This document shows, piece after piece, positions 36,946 to 47,194 of a DNA stretch of 64,000 nt (its first letter is position 1; every line of letters begins with the position of its first letter). Location of the stretch: NCBI RefSeq assembly GCF_900183975.1, contig NZ_LT853882.1, positions 1,295,501 to 1,359,500 of the forward strand, given 5' to 3'. The notes under the pieces were generated by a model. The model saw only the letters and a list, made by a program, of their open reading frames with translations. It ran no database searches and was not told the DNA's origin. Made by a program: the position numbers and the translations under genes. This stretch comes from Xanthomonas fragariae (GTDB lineage: Bacteria > Pseudomonadota > Gammaproteobacteria > Xanthomonadales > Xanthomonadaceae).

Positions 36946-37548
36946 ATGAAAACTCTCGTGCTTGGTGCTCTGGTGATCGGTCTGGTCGTGGCAGGCAATG
37001 CAACGGCACAGCGCTATGACAGCGGCTACCGCGACAACGGTCGTGGCAGCTATGAGGAGGGTCGTTACGAATATGCGCGCGTGGTGCGCGTTGAACCGAT
37101 CATCGTGTCTGACTCCTACAACGAGCGCACCAGCGAACGTTGCTACAACCGTCCAGCCGACGGTTACTACACCAGCAACGACGGCGATTACCGCGATGGC
37201 GGCAATTACGGCCAGCCGGGCGTGTCTAATCGCGGTGTGGCCAGCGTGATCGGCGGTATCGCCGGTGCGGTGCTCGGCAGCCAGGTTGGCGGCGGCAATG
37301 GCCGTCTGGTCGGCACTGCAGTCGGCACTATGGCCGGCGTGGCGGCAGGTCGCTCGATCTACCAAGCCAATAATCGCAATTATCAGGGCAATGTTAGGGT
37401 GTGCGAGCCGGTGTCTTACCGCCGCGAACGCGACCGTGTCGCTGGCTATGATGTGACCTACGAATATGCGGGCCGCGTTTATCACACGCGTAGCGACTAC
37501 AACCCGGGCGACCGCATCCGCGTGCGCGTGGATGTGAATCCTGACTGA
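36946..37548 (+). CDS. Glycine-zipper 2TM domain exported protein
   Basis: 200 residues with a signal peptide (KTLVLGALVIGLVVAGNATA). A Tyr/Asp/Gly-rich segment follows, then a glycine zipper (VASVIGGIAGAVLGSQVGGG...VGTAVGTMAGVAAG, residues about 100-135) and a C-terminal segment with Cys (VRVCEPVSYRRERDRVAGYD). The family contains outer-membrane lipoproteins such as SlyB and related 17-kDa antigens, but no lipobox is seen here. A strong terminator follows. Confidence 0.82.
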   Translation: MKTLVLGALVIGLVVAGNATAQRYDSGYRDNGRGSYEEGRYEYARVVRVEPIIVSDSYNERTSERCYNRPADGYYTSNDGDYRDGGNYGQPGVSNRGVASVIGGIAGAVLGSQVGGGNGRLVGTAVGTMAGVAAGRSIYQANNRNYQGNVRVCEPVSYRRERDRVAGYDVTYEYAGRVYHTRSDYNPGDRIRVRVDVNPD

Positions 37549-37609
37549 TCGTTGCGATGTCGCGTGTGGCTTTGGTCAAGCGATCGAGATCAGGTTGTTG
37601 AATGAAGAA

Positions 37610-37637
37610 AACGCTGCGGGCGACCGCAGCGTTTTTT
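37610..37637 (+). terminator. Rho-independent terminator
   Basis: A perfect 10-bp stem AACGCTGCGG/CCGCAGCGTT with a 4-base loop runs into six T. It ends the glycine-zipper gene. The next 200 bases to phzF show nothing. Confidence 0.9.
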
Positions 37638-37844
37638 GTTTCTCACGCGGAGGAATTCATGCGCAGCAGTGCTGTATTTGTATCGCTGCGATCTCGATCA
37701 ATGCGATGTGCTGCGCTGGATCCAAAGCGTTTGAATCACTGGTGCATCGACAGTGGCGCTTGATCGAGCAGCACAGGCAGCGCGCGCATCGCTGCGTTTG
37801 AGGCCCTGCAATCGGGTGTCGTCAGACCGCGGAATCAGGTTCGA

Positions 37845-38726
37845 TTACGCCCAATCCAGCGTCCCACGAATCACCGTCTGCACCTGGCCGCCTGACCACA
37901 CGTCGCCGTCGGCATCGATACACAGTTCCAGCAAGGCGTCGAAACCGATTTCGCGGCCCTGACTGACCACGTAGCGTCGCTCCTTGCCAGGCAATGCGTG
38001 ACGGCTGTCCAGCCACGCGGCGAGCACCGCATTGGCCGCGCCGGAGGCGGCATCTTCGAAGCGCCGACCATTGCCGACAAAAGCGCGCACCGCCAGATCG
38101 TAGGCACCCGGCGCTGCGGCGCGTGCGTAGGCGAACACGCCCATGCTGCCGGTGGATTCGGCCAGCGCAGCGACCGCTTCCCAATTCGGCTGCAGGTTGC
38201 GCAGTGCCGCTTCGCTGGCCAGTTCCACCACCCACCAGGTGCGGCCTCCGTCCATCAGTGCCGGTTGCAGGCTGCCGAGCGGCCAGCCGTGCAACGCATC
38301 GCTCAGGCGCGGGTCGTCGGCGTCCACTTGCTCGGCCACGCGCGCGCGCGGCGTGCGGATGGCGATGCTGCGGTGGCCGTCGATCTGCTCCACGCGCAGC
38401 GGCAACTGGCCGGCGATGCCGTCCTGTATCAGCACGCCCTCGTTCGGCGCGGCCAGCCCGGCGTCGAGTACCGCATGTGCCGTGCCCACGCTCGGGTGGC
38501 CAGCGAATGGCACTTCTTTTTGCGGCGAAAACATCCGTAGCCGATAACTGCTGTGCACATCTGGCGCCGGAAACACAAAGGTAGTTTCCGGCAGCTTGGT
38601 CCAACGTGCAATGGACTGCATCGCGGTATCGTCTAGATCGGCGGCGTCCAGCACCACCGCCAGCGGATTGCCGCTGCCGGGGCGGGCGGAGAACACATCC
38701 AGTTGCAGGAAGCGGCGGGTGGTCAT
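37845..38726 (-). CDS. PhzF-family isomerase-like protein
   Basis: 293 residues with the two-domain diaminopimelate-epimerase-like fold. The opening FLQLDVFSARPGSGNPLAVV is followed by the catalytic Glu in KLPETTFVF near residue 47 and by FSPQKEVPFAGHPSVGTAHA. The C-terminal half has FEDAASGAANAVLAAWL. No phenazine genes are nearby, so the substrate is unknown. Immediately upstream is a shortened paralogue. Confidence 0.88.
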   Translation of the reverse strand: MTTRRFLQLDVFSARPGSGNPLAVVLDAADLDDTAMQSIARWTKLPETTFVFPAPDVHSSYRLRMFSPQKEVPFAGHPSVGTAHAVLDAGLAAPNEGVLIQDGIAGQLPLRVEQIDGHRSIAIRTPRARVAEQVDADDPRLSDALHGWPLGSLQPALMDGGRTWWVVELASEAALRNLQPNWEAVAALAESTGSMGVFAYARAAAPGAYDLAVRAFVGNGRRFEDAASGAANAVLAAWLDSRHALPGKERRYVVSQGREIGFDALLELCIDADGDVWSGGQVQTVIRGTLDWA

Positions 38727-38757
38727 GGCGGCGGTTCCGCGATCAGGGCGGGGCAGC

Positions 38758-39063
38758 TTACCAATCGATACGGCCCTCGATCACTTGCCTCGTCATTCCG
38801 CCAATCCAGACGTCGGCTTCGGCATCCACCTCCACGTGGACGCGACCATCGCGCCCGACCTCGCGGCCCTGGTTGGCGACGTAGCGCGAATCGTTGCCCG
38901 GCAATCGGCCTTCGCTGTGCAAACGTTCGGCAATGCAGGCGTTGTCTCGACGTGCCACAGGCCACTTCGCACTCGCTCCAAAGTGCATGACACGCTCTAG
39001 TGGATTGCCGTTGCCGTATCTGCCGTCGAAGACATCCAGTTGCAGATAACGGTGCTTGCTCAT
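38758..39063 (-). pseudogene. Second phzF paralogue with large in-frame internal deletion
   Basis: 101 codons. The first 22 (HRYLQLDVFDGRYGNGNPL) match the N-terminus of the intact paralogue at 37845-38726. The last 60 or so (SRYVANQGREVGRDGRVHVE, ADVWIGGMTRQVIEGRIDW) match its C-terminus. About 190 central residues, including the catalytic Glu, are missing, yet the frame is open from ATG to stop. Enzyme activity is impossible. It probably arose by tandem duplication and then deletion. Confidence 0.8.
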
Positions 39064-39247
39064 GGTGAGTGAATCTGGATCGCAAGAAGGCGCGGCGATG
39101 GTCGCAGCGCAAATCGATGTGGCGATGGTGGCGGCCACCGGCGCGCTGTGATCGCACGCGGGGTCAGGCGAGCGGCATTGGCAGTAGAATCGCAGGCCCC
39201 GCCCGGCATACCGGGTATCTTCCCCCTCATCCTAAACGCCTATCTCC

Positions 39248-41857
39248 ATGTCAGCTCCCCACTCTACCGATCGTTGGATCGTCCTCAAGTTCGGCGGCAC
39301 CTCGGTGTCGCGTCGTCATCGCTGGGACACGATTGGAAAACTGGCGAGTAAACGGGCCGAGGACACCGGTGGCCGCGTGCTGGTGGTGGTGTCTGCATTG
39401 TCGGGCGTGACCAACGAACTCACCGCGATCGCCGACGGCGCCGCTGACAGCGCCCAGCGCGTGGCCGCGCTGGAGCAGCGTCATCGCGAGTTCCTGGCCG
39501 AGCTGGAACTGGATGCCGATGCCGTGCTTGGTGAGCGACTTGCCGCATTGCATGCATTGTTGGGCGATGCGCGCGCGACAACGTGCACGCTGGATTGGCA
39601 GGCCGAAGTATTGGGGCAGGGCGAGCTGTTGTCCTCGGCCATCGGTGCGGCTTATCTGCACGCCAATGGCCTGGATATGGGCTGGCTGGACGCGCGCCAG
39701 TGGCTGTCTGCGTTGCCGCCGCAGCCCAATCAGAGCGAATGGTCCAAGCGGTTGTCGGTGTCCTGCCAGTGGCAGTGCGACGCCGGCTGGCGCACGCGCT
39801 TCGATGCGCAGCCCACACGGCTGCTGATCACGCAAGGTTTCATTTCGCGGCATGCCGATGGTGGCACCGCAATTCTGGGGCGTGGCGGTTCGGACACCTC
39901 GGCGGCGTATTTCGGTGCGCTGCTTGGCGCCAGTCGTGTGGAAATCTGGACCGACGTGCCCGGCATGTTCAGCGCCAATCCCAAAGAAGTGCCGGACGCG
40001 CGCTTGCTGACCCGCCTAGACTATTACGAAGCACAGGAGATCGCCACCACCGGCGCCAAGGTGTTGCATCCGCGCTCGATCAAACCATGCCGCGATTCCG
40101 GCGTGCCGATGGCGGTTCTGGACACCGAGCGCCCCGACTTGCCGGGCACCAGCATCGACGGCAATGCCGAGCCGGTGCTGGGCGTCAAGGCGATCAGCCG
40201 CCGCAACGGCATCGTGCTGGTGTCGATGGAAGGTATCGGCATGTGGCAGCAGGTCGGCTTCCTTGCCGATGTGTTCGCCCTGTTCAAGAAGCACGGCTTG
40301 TCGGTGGACCTGATCGGTTCGGCCGAGACCAATGTCACCGTGTCGCTGGATCCGTCCGAGAATCTGGTCAACACCGACGTGCTGGCGGCGTTGTCGGCCG
40401 ATCTGTCGCAGATCTGCAAGGTCAAGATCATCGTTCCCTGCGCGGCAGTCACGCTGGTCGGGCGCGGCATGCGCTCGCTGCTGCACAAGCTCTCCAATGT
40501 GTGGGCTACGTTCGGGCAGGAACGCGTGCACATGATTTCGCAGTCGTCCAACGACTTGAATCTGACCTTCGTCATCGACGAATCCGATGCCGATGGTTTG
40601 CTGCCGATTCTGCACGCCGACCTGATCGACAGCGGTGCGATGCCGGTCAGCGAAGGCGAGGTGTTCGGCCCGCGTTGGCGGCAGATTATCGGCTCGGTGC
40701 GCCCGCGGCCCACACCGTGGTGGCATGCCGAGCGGGCGCATCTGCTGTCGCTATCCCAGGCCGGTACGCCGCGCTACGTGTATCACCTGCCAACCGTGCG
40801 TGCGCGTGCGCATGCCTTGGCGCAGATTGCCGCGGTGGATCAGCGTTACTACGCGATCAAGGCCAATGCGCACCCGGCCATATTGATGGCGCTGGAACAG
40901 GCAGGTTTCGGCCTGGAATGCGTCTCGCACGGCGAGTTGCGGCGGGTGTTCCAGACGCTGCCCGAGCTGTCACCGCGGCGTGTGCTGTTCACGCCGAGCT
41001 TTGCGCCCAGGGCCGAATACGAAGCTGCATTTGCGCTGGGCGTGACTGTCACTGTGGACAACGTCGAAGCGCTGCGTCGCTGGCCTGAGGTGTTCCGCGG
41101 CCGCAATGTGTGGCTGCGCATCGATCTTGGTCACGGAGATGGGCACCACGAGAAGGTCAATACCGGCGGCAAGGCGTCCAAGTTCGGGTTGTCGTCCACG
41201 CGGGTGAATGAGTTCGTCGAGCTGGCGCGCACGCTCGAAGTCACCATCACCGGTGTGCACGCGCACCTGGGCAGTGGCGTGGAGACCGGCGAGCACTGGC
41301 GGATGATGTACGACGAGCTGGCCGGTTTTGCGCGTCGTATCGGCACGGTGGAGACCATCGACATCGGTGGCGGCTTGCCGATTCCGTATAGCGCCGCCGA
41401 CGAGCCGTTCGATCTGGATGTCTGGGCCAAGGGCCTGGCCGAGGTCAAGGCTGTGCATCCGGGATACCGTCTGGCGATCGAGCCGGGCCGTTATCTGGTG
41501 GCCGAGGCCGGCGTGTTGCTGGCGCAGGTCACCCAGGTGATCGAAAAGGATGGCGTGCAGCGTGTCGGTCTGGATGCCGGCATGAACACCTTGATCCGCC
41601 CGGCGCTGTACGACGCCTGGCACGACATCGAAAACCTCAGCCAGCTCGACGCGCCTGCCGATGGCGCGTTCGATATCGTCGGGCCGATCTGCGAGTCGTC
41701 GGATGTGTTCGGCAAGCGCCGTCGGTTGCCTGCCGCCACCGCGCCGGGCGATGTCATGCTGATCGCCGACACCGGCGCCTATGGCTATTCGATGGTCAGC
41801 ACTTATAACCAGCGCGCATTGCCGCGCGAAGAGGTGATCGATGCGCCCGCAAGCTGA
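39248..41857 (+). CDS. lysAC: Bifunctional aspartokinase / diaminopimelate decarboxylase
   Basis: 869 residues. Residues 1-300 are the aspartokinase catalytic domain (VLKFGGTSVS at 12-21, RGGSDTSAAYFGALL near 220) and 310-470 hold ACT regulatory domains (MEGIGMWQQVGFLADVFALF). From about 490 to the end is a complete diaminopimelate decarboxylase: RYVYHLPTV, PLP lysine in YYAIKANAHP near 538, GVHAHLGSGVETGEHW, GGGLPIPY, ICESSDVFG and DTGAYGYSM. The fusion joins the first step of the aspartate pathway with the last step of lysine synthesis. It overlaps the next gene by 17 bases. Confidence 0.95.
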   Translation: MSAPHSTDRWIVLKFGGTSVSRRHRWDTIGKLASKRAEDTGGRVLVVVSALSGVTNELTAIADGAADSAQRVAALEQRHREFLAELELDADAVLGERLAALHALLGDARATTCTLDWQAEVLGQGELLSSAIGAAYLHANGLDMGWLDARQWLSALPPQPNQSEWSKRLSVSCQWQCDAGWRTRFDAQPTRLLITQGFISRHADGGTAILGRGGSDTSAAYFGALLGASRVEIWTDVPGMFSANPKEVPDARLLTRLDYYEAQEIATTGAKVLHPRSIKPCRDSGVPMAVLDTERPDLPGTSIDGNAEPVLGVKAISRRNGIVLVSMEGIGMWQQVGFLADVFALFKKHGLSVDLIGSAETNVTVSLDPSENLVNTDVLAALSADLSQICKVKIIVPCAAVTLVGRGMRSLLHKLSNVWATFGQERVHMISQSSNDLNLTFVIDESDADGLLPILHADLIDSGAMPVSEGEVFGPRWRQIIGSVRPRPTPWWHAERAHLLSLSQAGTPRYVYHLPTVRARAHALAQIAAVDQRYYAIKANAHPAILMALEQAGFGLECVSHGELRRVFQTLPELSPRRVLFTPSFAPRAEYEAAFALGVTVTVDNVEALRRWPEVFRGRNVWLRIDLGHGDGHHEKVNTGGKASKFGLSSTRVNEFVELARTLEVTITGVHAHLGSGVETGEHWRMMYDELAGFARRIGTVETIDIGGGLPIPYSAADEPFDLDVWAKGLAEVKAVHPGYRLAIEPGRYLVAEAGVLLAQVTQVIEKDGVQRVGLDAGMNTLIRPALYDAWHDIENLSQLDAPADGAFDIVGPICESSDVFGKRRRLPAATAPGDVMLIADTGAYGYSMVSTYNQRALPREEVIDAPAS

Positions 41858-42299
41858 GTTCGTTGCGCTCAGCACGCTGGCCGGCGGTGGTGCGATGACA
41901 TTGGCCACCGCCATTGACCAGTTAAACCTGCGTATGCCGTGGACCGACAGCTTCAAGTGGGCGCTGCCGGCGTTGGTTGCCGCCGGCAGCGGAGCTTGGT
42001 TGGCCGGATGCTGGCAGCGTCGCCGCGATGCACGGATACCTGCACGCAGTAGTGGTGGCATGGCGGTGCGCACGGTGCTGTTGAGTGCGCTGAGTTATGT
42101 GCCGGTGGTGGCGCTGTATGTGGCGCTTGCCTTCGCTGTATCGGGCGATGTGCAGGCCGGCAACAGCGATTTTCTGTTGTTGGCGGTGCTGTTCGGTTGC
42201 CTGCCGCTGCTGTGGGCGGCAGTGCCGTTTTCCATGATTGAATATGTCCTGTGCCGACGTTATCTGCGTCGCTTACGTGTTCTTGCAGGTAGTCCATGA
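41841..42299 (+). CDS. Small multi-pass membrane protein in the lysAC-murL-murD2 unit
   Basis: 152 residues with about four hydrophobic segments (LSTLAGGGAMTLATAI, ALPALVAAGSGAWLAGCW, LLSALSYVPVVALYVALAF, FLLLAVLFGCLPLLWAAVPF) and a basic cytoplasmic-type C-terminus (CRRYLRRLRVL). I do not recognise a family. It begins inside lysAC and its stop overlaps the start of murL (ATGA), so it is translated between the two. By position it may be linked to peptidoglycan precursor supply; this is inference only. Confidence 0.75.
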   Translation: MRPQAEFVALSTLAGGGAMTLATAIDQLNLRMPWTDSFKWALPALVAAGSGAWLAGCWQRRRDARIPARSSGGMAVRTVLLSALSYVPVVALYVALAFAVSGDVQAGNSDFLLLAVLFGCLPLLWAAVPFSMIEYVLCRRYLRRLRVLAGSP

Positions 42300-43654
42300 G
42301 CGCTTTCGACAAACACCAGGTGTCCACCTTCCGTTTCGTGCGTTGCGCACTCGACGCGCAGACCGGCGTGGCGACGCTGGTGTATGCCTTCGGTCAAGGG
42401 CCGGAGCTGGTCGAGACCGTCGCGGTGCCAGGCGCACCGTTCCAACTGGACGGCCCGCATGCGGCTGCTGTGCAGCAGGCGTTGCGCTTGCTGCATCTCA
42501 TCGCAGGTGTCAGTTACTTCAAGGCCGCAGTGCCGCCGAACATCCAGATCGACGATTACGCCATCGATGCGGAGACCGCTGCGCTGGTGGAAAACGTCTA
42601 CCTGCATGGCCTGGGTGAGTTCGCCTATCGCAATGGCTTGAACCTGCACGGCAAGATCAACTTTCCTGTCGCTGCACAGCCGGCTGGCGCCGCACCGGTA
42701 CTGGGTCTGCGCGAGCATGCGTTGGTCGCGATCGGTGGCGGCAAGGATTCGCTAGTGAGTATCGAAGTCTTGCGTCATGCCGGCGTGGATCAGACCGTCA
42801 GCTGGATCGGCGGCTCGCAGCTGATCCGCGCTTGCGCCGAGCGCACCGGTCTACCGGTGCTCACTATCGGCCGCGTGCTGGCGCCGGAATTGTTCGAACT
42901 CAATCGCCAGGGCGCGTGGAATGGACATATCCCGGTCACTGCGGTGAACTCGGCCATTCTGGTGTTGGCCGCATTGCTCAATGGCGTGGACCAGGTGGTG
43001 TTTTCCAACGAACGTTCGGCCAGTTACGGCAGCCAGATTCCCGGCACCGGCGAGGTCAATCACCAGTGGTCCAAGGGCTGGGCATTCGAGCAGACCTTCG
43101 GTGACTACGTGCAGCGGCATGTGGCGGCCGATCTGCGTTATTACTCGTTGCTGCGGCCGTTGTCGGAGCTGGCAGTGGCGCGGCAGTTCGCCAGGACCGA
43201 TCGCTACGACGGGCATTTTTCCAGCTGCAATCGCAACTTCCACATCATGGGCGAACGCCCGGTGCATCGCTGGTGTGGCGTCTGCCCTAAGTGTCATTTC
43301 GTGTTCCTGGCGCTGGCGCCGTTCATGCCGAAGACGCGTTTGGTCAATATCTTCGGCCGCAATCTGCTCGACGATGCGGCGCAAGCCGGCGGCTACGATG
43401 CGCTGCTGGAATTCCAGGACCACAAGCCATTCGAATGCGTCGGCGAAGGTCGCGAATCGCGCGCTGCGATGGCGGTGCTGGCCAGCCGCGCCGAATGGAA
43501 GGAAGACGCATTGGTGAAGCGCTTTGTCCGCGACATCCAGCCGCAGCTTGACCGGCAGGAGCTACAGCTGGAGCCGTTGATGGCCATCGATGGCGGCGAG
43601 CACCGTATTCCATCGGCGCTGTGGGAGCGCGTGCGTGCGAATTTCGCAGTTTGA
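42296..43654 (+). CDS. murL: UDP-MurNAc-L-alanyl-L-glutamate epimerase MurL
   Basis: 452 residues. MurL epimerises the terminal L-Glu of UDP-MurNAc-L-Ala-L-Glu to D-Glu, using ATP, and so replaces the glutamate racemase route. An ATP-pyrophosphatase-like loop [19 protein letters not shown] lies near residues 144-162. Further conserved blocks are [40 protein letters not shown] and a CxxC-like [10 protein letters not shown] near 325. The pairing with murD2 immediately downstream (20-base overlap) supports the call, as in the X. oryzae pair known from the literature. Confidence 0.9.
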
Positions 43655-45044
43655 AGGCAAGGCGGTTGCGTTATGGGGTTGGGGGCGCGAAGGACGCGCG
43701 GCGTATCGCGCGCTACGCGCCTTGTTGCCCACGCAAGCGCTGACGATCTTCTGCAATGCCGAAGAAGCGCGCGAGCTCGATGCGCTGGCCGACGTCGCGT
43801 TGCATGTAGAAACCGAGGCTGGCGCGCAGGCGCTGGGCCGGTTCGAGATCGTGGTGAAGTCGCCCGGCATCAGCCCGTATCGCAATGAGGTGCAAACCGC
43901 CAACGCCGAGCACGGCACGCAGTTCATCGGTGGCACCGCGTTGTGGTTTGCCGAGCGCGCGGGACCAGACGGTAGCGTGCCTGGCGCTATCTGCGTCACC
44001 GGCACCAAGGGCAAGAGCACCACCACCGCGTTGCTAGCGCATCTGTTGCGTGCGGCCGGACATCGCACTGCATTGGTCGGCAATATCGGCCAACCGTTGC
44101 TGGAGGTGCTGGCGCCGCAACCGCCGCCGACGTATTGGGCGATCGAGTTGTCCAGCTATCAAACCGGTGAAGTAGGGCGCAGTGGCGCGCGTCCCGAATT
44201 GGCGGTGGTGTTGAACCTGTTTCCCGAGCACCTGGACTGGCATGGCGACGAGGCGCGCTACGTGCGCGACAAACTGTCGTTGGTCACCGAGGGCCGCCCG
44301 CGTATGGCCTTGCTCAATGCTGCCGATGCGCATCTGACGCAGCTGCAGTTGCCGGACAGCGAGGTGCGTTGGTTCAACCATCCCGATGGCTGGCACTTGC
44401 GTGGCGATGTGGTGTATCGCGGCGAGCAGGCCGTGTTCGATACTGCCAACGTGCCGCTGCCGGGCGAACACAATCGCCGCAATCTGTGCGCGGTGCTGGC
44501 GGCGGTGGAAGCGCTGGGCCTGGATGCGGCTGCGCTGGCACCGGCTGCGCTGAGCTTCCGCCCATTGCCGAACCGCCTGCAACTGCTCGGCAGCGTGGAC
44601 GGCATCAGCTACGTCAACGATTCGATCAGCACCACGCCACATGCCTCATTGGCGGCGCTTGCCTGCTTCGCGCAGCGTCGTGTTGCCTTGCTGGTTGGCG
44701 GACATGATCGTGGGCTGGACTGGCACGATTTTGCCGAGCACATGGCGCAACAGGCCCCGCTGGAAATCGTCACCATGGGAGCCAACGGGCCACGCATTCA
44801 TGCGCTGCTGGCCCCGTTGGCCGAAGCCGGTCGTTTCGGTCTGCATGCCGGCACCGATCTGGAACACGCAATGCGGCTGGCGCGTGAGGCGCTGGGCGAG
44901 CAGGGCGGTGTGGTGTTGCTGTCGCCGGGTGCGCCCAGCTTTGGCGTCTACAGCGATTACGTTGCACGCGGCCGACATTTCGCCCAACTGGCCGGATTCG
45001 ATCCTGCGGCGATCAGCGCGATTCCCGGTTTGGGCGTGCAGTAG
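43635..45044 (+). CDS. murD2: UDP-MurNAc-L-alanine--L-glutamate ligase MurD2
   Basis: 469 residues from the GTG at 43635, the start that removes a spurious N-terminal extension and opens with [19 protein letters not shown]. It is a Mur ligase with the P-loop [18 protein letters not shown] near 118-135, [39 protein letters not shown] and [13 protein letters not shown]. It differs from classical MurD by adding L-Glu rather than D-Glu. That specificity is inferred from the murL partner and the Xanthomonas context, not from residues that I can prove. Confidence 0.9.
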
Positions 45045-45207
45045 CTCTGCACCGATCCACTGCCACTTGGCGTGCATTCGATTTGAGTTCCGGCGGTTGT
45101 GCCCTGACGCACAAAACGCCATCGCGATCTGCCCGCTGTCACCCACGACGACCCGCCTTGCACGGCAGCAGCGCCTACACTCGCTGTACCTTCCCGGGAG
45201 CAAGCAC

Positions 45208-46008
45208 ATGCACAAGCAATGCACATGGTGTGGCGCTGGATTGGTTGGTCTTTTGGCGTCGTTGGCATTTCCCGCGGCGGCGGCGATGCAGACCAAACCG
45301 CTGGAATGGAAAATCGGCAAGGACACTTTCAGCGGCGTGCTGGTGTACGACGATGCCGGCGATGGCAAGCGTCCGGGCCTGGTGATGGTGCCCAACTGGC
45401 GCGGCGTCAACGGCTCGGCGGTGACCAAGGCCAAGCAACTTGCTGGCGACGACTATGTGGTGCTGGTGGCCGACGTGTATGGCAAGGGCATCCGGCCCAA
45501 GGACGATACCGAGGCCGGGGTGCAGGCCAAGAAGCTGCGTGACGACCGGTCCACGTTGCAGGCGCGTGCGCTCAAGGCGGTGGATGTGCTCAAGGTGCAG
45601 TCCGGCAAGGCGCCGCTGGACGCAACACGCATCGGTGCGGTGGGCTTCTGCTTCGGCGGCACCACGGTGCTGGAGCTGGTACGTGCGGGCGCGCAGCTGG
45701 CCGGTGTGGTCAGTCTGCACGGTGGCATCGCGACAACCAGTCCGGCGGCTGCCGGCTCGGCCAAGACGCCGCTGCTGGTGCTCAACGGTGCCGACGACAA
45801 GAGCGTGACCAAGGCGGACATCGCCGCATTCGAAACCGAGATGGATGCAGCTGGTGCAGATTGGCAGTTCGTCAACTTCAGCGGTGCGGTGCATTGCTTC
45901 GCCGAGGCCGATGCCAACAGCCCGCCGGGCTGCCTGTACAACCCACGCGCGGCGAAACGTGCGTATCGCATGCTGGGCGATTTCTTCGACGAACGTTTCG
46001 GCGATTGA
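45208..46008 (+). CDS. Exported dienelactone hydrolase-family protein
   Basis: 266 residues from the ATG at 45208, preceded by CGGGAG. The signal peptide CGAGLVGLLASLAFPAAAAM may also read as a Sec signal with an early Cys. It has an alpha/beta-hydrolase core with the DLH nucleophile in GAVGFCFGGTTVLEL (Cys as nucleophile), the Asp in VLNGADDKSV and the His in GAVHCFAEADAN. The substrate is unknown. Its C-terminus ends 12 bases before a MITE copy. Confidence 0.85.
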   Translation: MHKQCTWCGAGLVGLLASLAFPAAAAMQTKPLEWKIGKDTFSGVLVYDDAGDGKRPGLVMVPNWRGVNGSAVTKAKQLAGDDYVVLVADVYGKGIRPKDDTEAGVQAKKLRDDRSTLQARALKAVDVLKVQSGKAPLDATRIGAVGFCFGGTTVLELVRAGAQLAGVVSLHGGIATTSPAAAGSAKTPLLVLNGADDKSVTKADIAAFETEMDAAGADWQFVNFSGAVHCFAEADANSPPGCLYNPRAAKRAYRMLGDFFDERFGD

Positions 46009-46020
46009 TGTAGCGGCTAA

Positions 46021-46156
46021 GAGCGGCGAATAAATGTTGCGAGCGGTTGCCGGGTCGGTGCGGACGAAGTGGACGAACGCGGTGTACCAGCGGTGCATGC
46101 CGATACCGCACAGGCTGCGCCTGCCCGGCGGACGCGCACTAGTTTGTTATTCGCTC
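46021..46156. repeat. MITE-like element, copy 3 (136 bp, diverged)
   Basis: The left end GAGCGGCGAATAAATG and right end complement GAGCGAATAACAAACT resemble the IS5-family ends (GAGCGGCTAACAAAAC) more than the other MITE copies do. The core has GGTGCATGCCGATACC, related to the ATGCCGATTCC core of copies 1 and 2. No clear target duplication is seen (TAA/CAA). Confidence 0.6.
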
Positions 46157-46195
46157 CAAGGTCGCAACCGAGGCAGGCAACACCTGCCGTTTGAA

Positions 46196-47194
46196 TCAAT
46201 GCGTCCGTTCCACTGCATAACGCGCCAAACCGCGCAGCGCGGCAACCGCGGGGCCGGGCTGCAAGTCCTCCAACGCCTGTTCGGCGGCGGCGGCATATTC
46301 AGCAGCACGTTGACGGCTGTAGTCCAATCCGCCAGTAGCGTGAATCGCCGCCAACACCTCGGGCATTGCGCCTGCATCGCCTTGTTCGACGATCTGCCGC
46401 AGGCGCTGGCGCGTGGTCGCATCCGAGTGTGCCATGGCGTGGATCAGCGGCAGCGTGGCCTTGCCTTCGGCCAGATCGTCGCCCAGGTTCTTGCCCAGGT
46501 CGGATGCCTCGGCGGCGTAGTCGAGCACGTCGTCGGCAATCTGGAAGGCGAAGCCCAACTGCATTCCGTAATCGTACAGACGCTGCTGCATATCGGCATC
46601 CGCGCCCGAGGCCAGCGCGCCCAGGCGTGTGCCGGCAGCAAACAGCACCGCCGTCTTGCGCTCGATCACGCGCAGATAGGCGGCTTCATCGGTGTCGGGG
46701 TTGTGCACGTGCAACAGCTGCAGCACCTCGCCCTCGGCGATACGGTTGGTGGTGTCTGCCAGGATCTGCATGACTTCCATGCGATCGAGCTCGACCATCA
46801 ACTGGAAGCTGCGCGAGTACAGAAAGTCGCCGACCAGCACGCTGGGCGCATTGCCCCATAGCGCATTGGCGGTGCTGCGCCCGCGGCGCAGGTCCGACTC
46901 GTCCACCACGTCGTCGTGCAGTAGCGTGGAGGTGTGGATGAACTCGATGATCGCCGCCAGCTGATGGTGCTTCGGGCCGGAGCCTCCAGCGGCGCGGCCG
47001 GCCAGCATGACCAGCATCGGACGCAGGCGTTTGCCACCGGCGGAGATGATGTGATCGGCAATCTGGTTGATTAGCACGACGTCCGAGGCCAGGCGGCAGC
47101 GGATCAGCGCGTCGACCGCTGCCATGTCAGGCGCGGCGAGCGACTGGATCTGGGGCAGGCCCGGGACGGTGGGGAGGTCTTCGGCGATGGTCAT
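46196..47194 (-). CDS. ispB: Octaprenyl diphosphate synthase
   Basis: 332 residues. It is a trans-prenyltransferase making the ubiquinone side chain. The first Asp-rich motif is in LLHDDVVDESDLRRG near residue 90 and the second in QIADDVLDYAAEASDLGKNLGDD near 218. Residue KRLRPMLVMLA near the N-terminus binds diphosphate. The chain length (octaprenyl) is inferred from family and phylum, as Xanthomonas uses ubiquinone-8. Confidence 0.93.
   Translation of the reverse strand: MTIAEDLPTVPGLPQIQSLAAPDMAAVDALIRCRLASDVVLINQIADHIISAGGKRLRPMLVMLAGRAAGGSGPKHHQLAAIIEFIHTSTLLHDDVVDESDLRRGRSTANALWGNAPSVLVGDFLYSRSFQLMVELDRMEVMQILADTTNRIAEGEVLQLLHVHNPDTDEAAYLRVIERKTAVLFAAGTRLGALASGADADMQQRLYDYGMQLGFAFQIADDVLDYAAEASDLGKNLGDDLAEGKATLPLIHAMAHSDATTRQRLRQIVEQGDAGAMPEVLAAIHATGGLDYSRQRAAEYAAAAEQALEDLQPGPAVAALRGLARYAVERTH

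Follow-up and report, generated by a model that had tools for sequence, protein, structure and literature searches.

A conserved aspartokinase–murL–murD2 gene order that may supply peptidoglycan stem residues 2 and 3 together in Xanthomonas fragariae and its relatives

We analysed a 64,000-nucleotide stretch of the Xanthomonas fragariae genome (contig NZ_LT853882.1, positions 1,295,501 to 1,359,500 of the forward strand), hereafter the window, in which four + strand genes, lysAC, an open reading frame (ORF) for a small membrane protein, murL and murD2, follow one another with overlaps of 17, 4 and 20 bases. The ORF coordinates reproduce exactly the overlaps given in a preliminary description of this DNA, which had proposed that one transcription unit joins the diaminopimelate (DAP) and lysine branch to the L-Glu to D-Glu route of peptidoglycan synthesis. 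The four genes are:

39248..41857, + strand, lysAC, with an aspartokinase half at about residues 10–461 and a diaminopimelate decarboxylase (LysA) half at about residues 503–861 (NCBIfam and Pfam)
41841..42299, + strand, membrane ORF of 152 residues, predicted four-helix, overlapping lysAC by 17 bases and murL by 4
42296..43654, + strand, murL (NF041275), with a 4-base ATGA overlap with the membrane ORF
43635..45044, + strand, murD2 (TIGR01087), with a GTG start and a 20-base overlap with murL

The earlier assignments of LysAC, MurL and MurD2 also stand, each protein scoring above its NCBIfam cut-off. LysAC matches PRK08961 over its full length (1546.8 bits against a cut-off of 802, residues 3–866), has Pfam matches to AA_kinase, ACT_9, Orn_Arg_deC_N and Orn_DAP_Arg_deC, and reaches 304.3 bits in its LysA half against TIGR01048 (cut-off 297.9). 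MurL scores 819.8 bits against NF041275 (curated cut-off 700, residues 4–449) and is 91–93% identical to the MurL of Xanthomonas loci L188, L193, L194 and L211. MurD2 scores 292.8 bits against the MurD model TIGR01087 (cut-off 211.95) and is the sole MurD above cut-off in its own genome.

The individual enzymes are already known, and the MurD2/MurL pathway of Xanthomonas oryzae was reportedly the subject of Feng et al. 2017. In the available portions of two papers, MurD2 and MurL form an alternative peptidoglycan pathway of that species (PMC8788868; PMC5808125); the X. oryzae MurD2 residues near Glu are E197, R358, P433 and F435, and stereospecificity is switched by E197 and R358 (PMC8788868). 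By alignment the window MurD2 has E198, R359, P434 and F436 at these positions, and E198 and R359 stand at those of E. coli D182 and K348, which together with the MurD score identifies it as a MurD2. The assay data in the same portions concern XOO_1319, not the window protein (PMC8788868; PMC5808125). A search of the window's own genome for glutamate racemase (TIGR00067) gave no match at E ≤ 0.001, D-amino acid aminotransferase not being searched for; this and the single MurD are as expected from the published X. oryzae route. Among 200 genomes of the order, TIGR00067 is above cut-off in 3, with 54 more giving only weak matches. In one genome of family f1, genus g10 (G126), a racemase above cut-off occurs together with MurL, and the racemase-bearing G019 and G119 have no MurL match. 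The locus thus shares with the X. oryzae pathway the same two adjacent enzymes, the L-Glu determinants in MurD2 and no racemase found, but the aspartokinase/lysAC linkage, the membrane ORF and the aspartokinase–MurL fusions reported below are undescribed in the available text of PMC8788868 and PMC5808125. LysAC goes unmentioned in that text of both papers, and the words "operon" and "cluster" are both absent from that of PMC8788868. Among the matches listed in our literature search, neither a lysAC–murL linkage nor an aspartokinase–MurL fusion is described.

In an even draw of 200 genomes from the order, 191 have MurL (E ≤ 1e-10) and 199 have a LysAC match. We call murL linked when it has an aspartokinase gene upstream, in the same orientation and no more than 1.2 kb away. 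Among 100 MurL loci, composed of the top-ranked MurL matches and chosen deeper ones and therefore leaning to close relatives rather than random, 83 are linked: 35/35 in family f1, 39/39 in f2, f3, f5, f11 and f12 together, 2/2 in f4, 7/13 in f7, 0/9 in f9, 0/1 in f6 and 0/1 in f8 (L085, with too little upstream DNA to judge, is entered as unlinked). Later loci added four linked f9 genomes (L231, L232, L283, L286), a third f4 genome (L285) and five additional f7 genomes (loci L226–L230 and L235), and 14 of 15 further f3, f11 and f12 genomes are linked, the fifteenth being split over two contigs. Examined from the lysAC side, six f8 genomes, one f10 and one f6 genome show no linkage, with just 1.2 kb available downstream of lysAC on one f8 contig. 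Of the 191 genomes in the even draw that carry MurL, at least 108 are therefore linked (the 83, the window, the 14 and the ten later linked genomes G020, G154, G114, G079, G034, G147, G127, G152, G117 and G097, with 83 left over as unlinked or undetermined), and so the order of the core genes has not been lost in most relatives. The named set comprises the best 80 of 556 candidates. Sufficient upstream sequence exists for 74 of its loci, of which 64 are linked; Wenzhouxiangella, Marinicella and Solirubrobacter are among the ten that are not. Ten genomes outside the order carry MurL; none of the nine loci fetched (G373, on two contigs, was left out) has an aspartokinase gene beside murL, and a linkage of MurL to lysC outside the order was rejected on that count.

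The two genes overlap or abut in 30 of the 83 linked loci (by 4 bases in 20), lie 1–20 bases apart in 5, 21–120 in 18 and more than 120 in 27, and are oddly spaced in 3; odd spacings, in these three and in two named loci, stem from start-site choice and were kept in the totals. The preliminary description had named conservation of the gene order across relatives as a check. Conservation holds for lysAC–murL–murD2 in most loci examined but not for the membrane protein as a fixed partner, and the conserved core is aspartokinase–murL–murD2, with the membrane protein excluded. This linkage is real and kept over much of the order, and is patchy or absent in the deeper families. In four f11 loci (L065, L073, L077, L078) lysAC and murL are present and MurD2 was not detected in the locus.

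As a control for the simple persistence of housekeeping adjacency, we compared the unit with its flanking genes in the window by MurL identity bin (90–100, 80–90, 70–80, 60–70, 50–60 and 40–50%). In that descending order an aspartokinase is adjacent in 2/2, 14/14, 13/13, 28/28, 17/17 and 8/24 loci. The corresponding counts are 2/2, 15/15, 10/12, 9/28, 1/17 and 0/23 for the downstream hydrolase, 2/2, 14/14, 12/13, 10/28, 4/17 and 0/24 for the upstream PhzF gene, and 2/2, 15/15, 12/12, 26/28, 15/17 and 23/23 for MurD2. The adjacency of aspartokinase and murL thus survives longer than that of both outer flanking genes.

The window LysAC is a full-length member of its family, but part of family f7 has beside murL a LysA-free relative of the aspartokinase half, which in one genus is fused to MurL. 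The f7 gene abutting murL matches LysAC within the first ~480 residues only (from residue 187 only at L093), and in the three tested its best NCBIfam score is to the aspartokinase half of LysAC, at 412–461 bits. Twelve f7 genomes have such a gene; nine of them have a full LysAC elsewhere and one (G097) a separate lysA. The remaining two, G063 and G142, have the aspartokinase beside murL and no LysA above cut-off in assemblies that are 97% and 90% complete, and may be lysine auxotrophs or reflect assembly gaps. A tree built from 49 aspartokinase domains unites the eight that lack LysA with the four fused ones (98/93) and puts the LysAC halves on the opposite side at weak support (80/56) and ThrA in a separate group; long branches (L001 ThrA, L081) were flagged, and we rely here solely on the f7 murL-side aspartokinases grouping together. 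KFGG(T/S)S and GRGGSD, which like DVPG we take to have a catalytic role, are conserved in the nine murL-side kinases compared.

In genus g59 of f7 (G127, two copies in G152, and G117), a single unbroken ORF of 935–942 residues encodes both aspartokinase and MurL (loci L227, L228, L229 and L230), cut by the contig end in G117. A search with the fused protein (E ≤ 1e-120) places the fusion in 4 of 397 genomes of the order; the match in G632 reaches residue 541 only, spanning the junction, and a fifth match, G082, is MurL alone. A length-limited search for long proteins returned 543 that contain MurL, and among the 120 listed five have the motif order aspartokinase then MurL (P0001–P0003, P0005 and P0006; KFGGTS plus GGGKDS), P0001 and P0002 being the G152 copies and P0003 coming from a different source collection. 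A single ORF with both catalytic motifs, found in independent genomes outside the window, points to a bifunctional aspartokinase–MurL protein. Between the two G152 copies the ratio of nonsynonymous to synonymous substitution rates (dN/dS) is 0.121 for the kinase half and 0.106 for the MurL half, and reaches 1.18 across the linker of 22 residues; both fused halves are under purifying selection. The gene fusions strengthen the link between aspartokinase and murL.

MurL also occurs in other fused arrangements. A MurD motif follows the MurL motif in 81 of the 120 listed MurL-containing long proteins, whereas in the window murL and murD2 are separate ORFs. Such fusions (P0007 onward) include records named Falkowbacteria and Alphaproteobacteria, and in f7 genus g44 they are single ORFs at L087:6603-9347 and L226:6971-9715. 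P0037, P0040 and P0046 have PF04480, presumably a DUF559-type endonuclease, in the same chain as MurL; an ORF in the lysAC–murL gap of L154 looks, to our eye, similar to PF04480 proteins.

The window MurL has two invariant features:

42734..42751, + strand, PP-loop-like motif GGGKDS of murL, residues 147–152, invariant in 26 MurL sequences
43226..43294, + strand, C311, C327, C330 and C333 of murL, candidate zinc site, invariant in the same 26

An AlphaFold2 (AF2) model of MurL, with a predicted local distance difference test (pLDDT) score of 94.7, resembles the PP-loop enzymes QueC, Cap9 and QatC, and on this model MurL is probably a QueC-like PP-loop enzyme; a sequence search of the PDB gave MurL no match with an E-value below 0.87. 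The PP-loop superfamily has an SGGxDS-type motif and QueC binds zinc on four cysteines, to which we take the four MurL cysteines to be comparable. The likeness ends at the reaction, which in MurL is peptide epimerisation and not deazaguanine chemistry. A defence role, considered from the likeness to QatC, was rejected as PADLOC gave no match. In their available portions, the published accounts have MurL convert ATP to AMP (PMC8788868; PMC5808125), an adenylate intermediate being its authors' hypothesis, and a 2018 review calls the mechanism unclear (PMC5808125). The predicted fold fits this ATP-to-AMP chemistry, and MurL may adenylate the L-Glu alpha-carboxylate, epimerise it and then hydrolyse the adenylate.

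The membrane ORF starts behind one further element:

41826..41840, + strand, putative ribosome-binding site of the membrane ORF, inside the 3' end of lysAC, GCGAAGAGGTGATCG

This stretch is kept in 30/30 genus loci, six with one base changed. The ORF itself is present in 35/35 genomes of the genus, and its start in the lysAC context and 4-base murL overlap are found in all 30 genus loci read, the window included. Its median dN/dS is 0.394, against 0.053 for the adjoining part of lysAC and 0.088 for that of murL, and by sequence it is recognised at just 6 of the 100 loci of the order, being absent from the Stenotrophomonas loci examined; it is weakly constrained and often absent. In Pseudoxanthomonas, Luteimonas and a small number of others this slot is taken by diverged hydrophobic ORFs of 144–168 residues, which in L026, L030, L151 and L187 also overlap their neighbours by 17 and 4 bases, and some Rhodanobacteraceae have a different-looking hydrophobic ORF there. 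We did not accept a common origin of the Xanthomonas and Rhodanobacteraceae types, which match by profile at 75.7% probability and 20% identity over hydrophobic segments. The AF2 model has four helices at a mean pLDDT of 72.9, and the protein belongs to no known family by NCBIfam (no match) and Pfam (scores below cut-off or at chance level), in agreement with the preliminary description. The slot holds only 54–69 codons in X. albilineans (L158) and at L029 and L033 of genus g2, and the 17- and 4-base overlaps are retained. These three loci hint at translational coupling, with pressure to keep ribosomes running from lysAC to murL and not to preserve the membrane protein itself.

Upstream of lysAC lies a conserved leader:

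39185..39190, + strand, TAGAAT, conserved -10-like box before lysAC with a putative promoter role (alignment)
39201..39216, + strand, leader hairpin GCCCGG-CATA-CCGGGT, about 30 nt before the lysAC start

Box and hairpin precede lysAC in Xanthomonas, Stenotrophomonas, Pseudoxanthomonas and some others, the box standing at a similar distance upstream in the aligned Xanthomonas and Stenotrophomonas loci and occurring in 29/36 f1 upstream regions and 55/157 overall. In 34 chosen, not random, sequences (the 40 passing a motif filter minus L018, L034, L156, L168, L186 and L214), 94.1% of hairpin cells are paired and covariation is 0.314 against 0.151 in shuffles. With a covariance model the window hairpin is the single site reported in its own genome (45.8 bits); a hairpin regulon was rejected, no second site there being reported with 150 of 2251 first-look candidates scored. 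A lysine riboswitch was likewise rejected, Rfam giving none in 37500–46500 at E ≤ 5. Another recurring motif, GCGCAACACT, stands before lysAC in Rhodanobacteraceae loci such as L047, L050 and L054. Neither a sigma-70-like site nor a + strand terminator emerged from a consensus scan of 38700–45400; this is weak evidence for one transcription unit. Beyond the unit, at 46025–46098 on the - strand, there is a sub-threshold match to the Xanthomonas small RNA sX9 (33.5 bits against a gathering threshold of 44).

We favour, with a probability of about 0.62, the reading that the locus represents an operon for cell-wall precursors, conserved over much of the Xanthomonas order and supplying stem-peptide residues 2 and 3 together. 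LysAC provides the aspartokinase step at the entry of the aspartate pathway to meso-diaminopimelate (mDAP), residue 3 of the stem peptide, and its LysA half drains mDAP to lysine; MurL and MurD2 supply residue 2, D-Glu. One transcript would start before lysAC, and ribosomes passing the overlapping stop and start codons would keep enzyme amounts matched. In part of f7 the murL-side aspartokinase, lacking the LysA half, may be a kinase reserved for the wall, in one genus fused to MurL. The direct basis is gene order, overlaps, conservation relative to the flanking genes, fusions, selection on the fused halves and the predicted fold; the common transcript, translational coupling, joint control of flux and catalytic steps we infer. 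The narrower proposal that the f7 LysA-free aspartokinase evolved as a wall-only mDAP supplier and was welded to MurL, so that one enzyme commits stem residues 2 and 3 and its ACT sensor domains might adjust D-Glu output to conditions in the DAP/lysine branch, is unlikely.

Several observations weigh against joint supply: (i) Linkage is lacking in f8 (0/6), f6 (0/1), f10 (0/1), 9/13 f9 genomes and part of f7. (ii) Its absence from the nine out-of-order MurL loci marks it as a lineage habit and not a pathway need. (iii) The >120 bases between the genes in 27/83 linked loci leave room for an ORF or a separate promoter. (iv) Adjacent overlapping genes fuse easily, and a fusion indicates tolerance of co-expression more surely than metabolic coupling. 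(v) The lysine-contact loop of the ACT domain reads MLHSRGF in 2j0w, where we take it to hold the lysine-contact residues of E. coli LysC, MWQQVGF in the window LysAC and TRQQVGF or similar in f7; judged by this loop sequence, unlike that of E. coli LysC, lysine feedback cannot be assumed. (vi) The DVPG stretch is variable in those murL-side aspartokinases that were compared, and only part of the L093 kinase is present in its assembly.

The main rival to joint supply is that only a promoter is shared: murL–murD2 would have settled behind a steady lysC/lysAC promoter, with no coordination of DAP and D-Glu, and the order would persist since an essential pair would not readily part with its promoter. 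The conserved leader before lysAC fits this, as does the lack of a promoter-like site inside the unit in the consensus scan, and at the f9 loci L094 and L102 an AI-2E family transporter gene stands upstream of murL–murD2 instead of lysAC, so other upstream genes can serve. However, f9 also has linked genomes, and the f7 neighbour of murL is no random gene but a LysA-free aspartokinase, MurL-fused in one genus; we regard promoter sharing alone as rather doubtful. The same f7 genes could instead reflect a partnership between proteins, in which the aspartokinase, through its ACT sensor domains, binds MurL so that one sets the activity of the other and the fusion is a permanent complex. Two constrained domains joined by a freely changing linker fit this, and the LysA-free aspartokinase remains beside murL in 12 f7 genomes. 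Yet the fusion is confined to one genus-level group (4/397 order genomes) and the other linked members seen have two separate ORFs, which makes a partnership quite improbable.

It is more improbable still that the membrane protein is the special ingredient, tying the unit to the membrane or sensing wall stress. Its presence throughout the genus, with start context and murL overlap kept in every locus read, speaks for such a role, as do the similar-sized hydrophobic ORFs in the slot of several genera and some Rhodanobacteraceae, with their weak profile similarity. Against this, its median dN/dS is far above that of its neighbours, it was found by sequence in 6/100 loci, and the short ORFs in three loci retain the overlaps with no membrane segments. 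We consider the prominence given to this protein in the preliminary description misplaced.

In the available text of PMC8788868, the MurL–MurD2 route is a proposed narrow-spectrum antibiotic target, and the QueC-like fold suggests a mechanism for MurL. How bacteria balance the separate supplies of stem-peptide amino acids is, to our knowledge, little understood. Adjacency, overlap and fusion tie the aspartate branch to D-Glu formation, and would make this balance testable with one gene pair.

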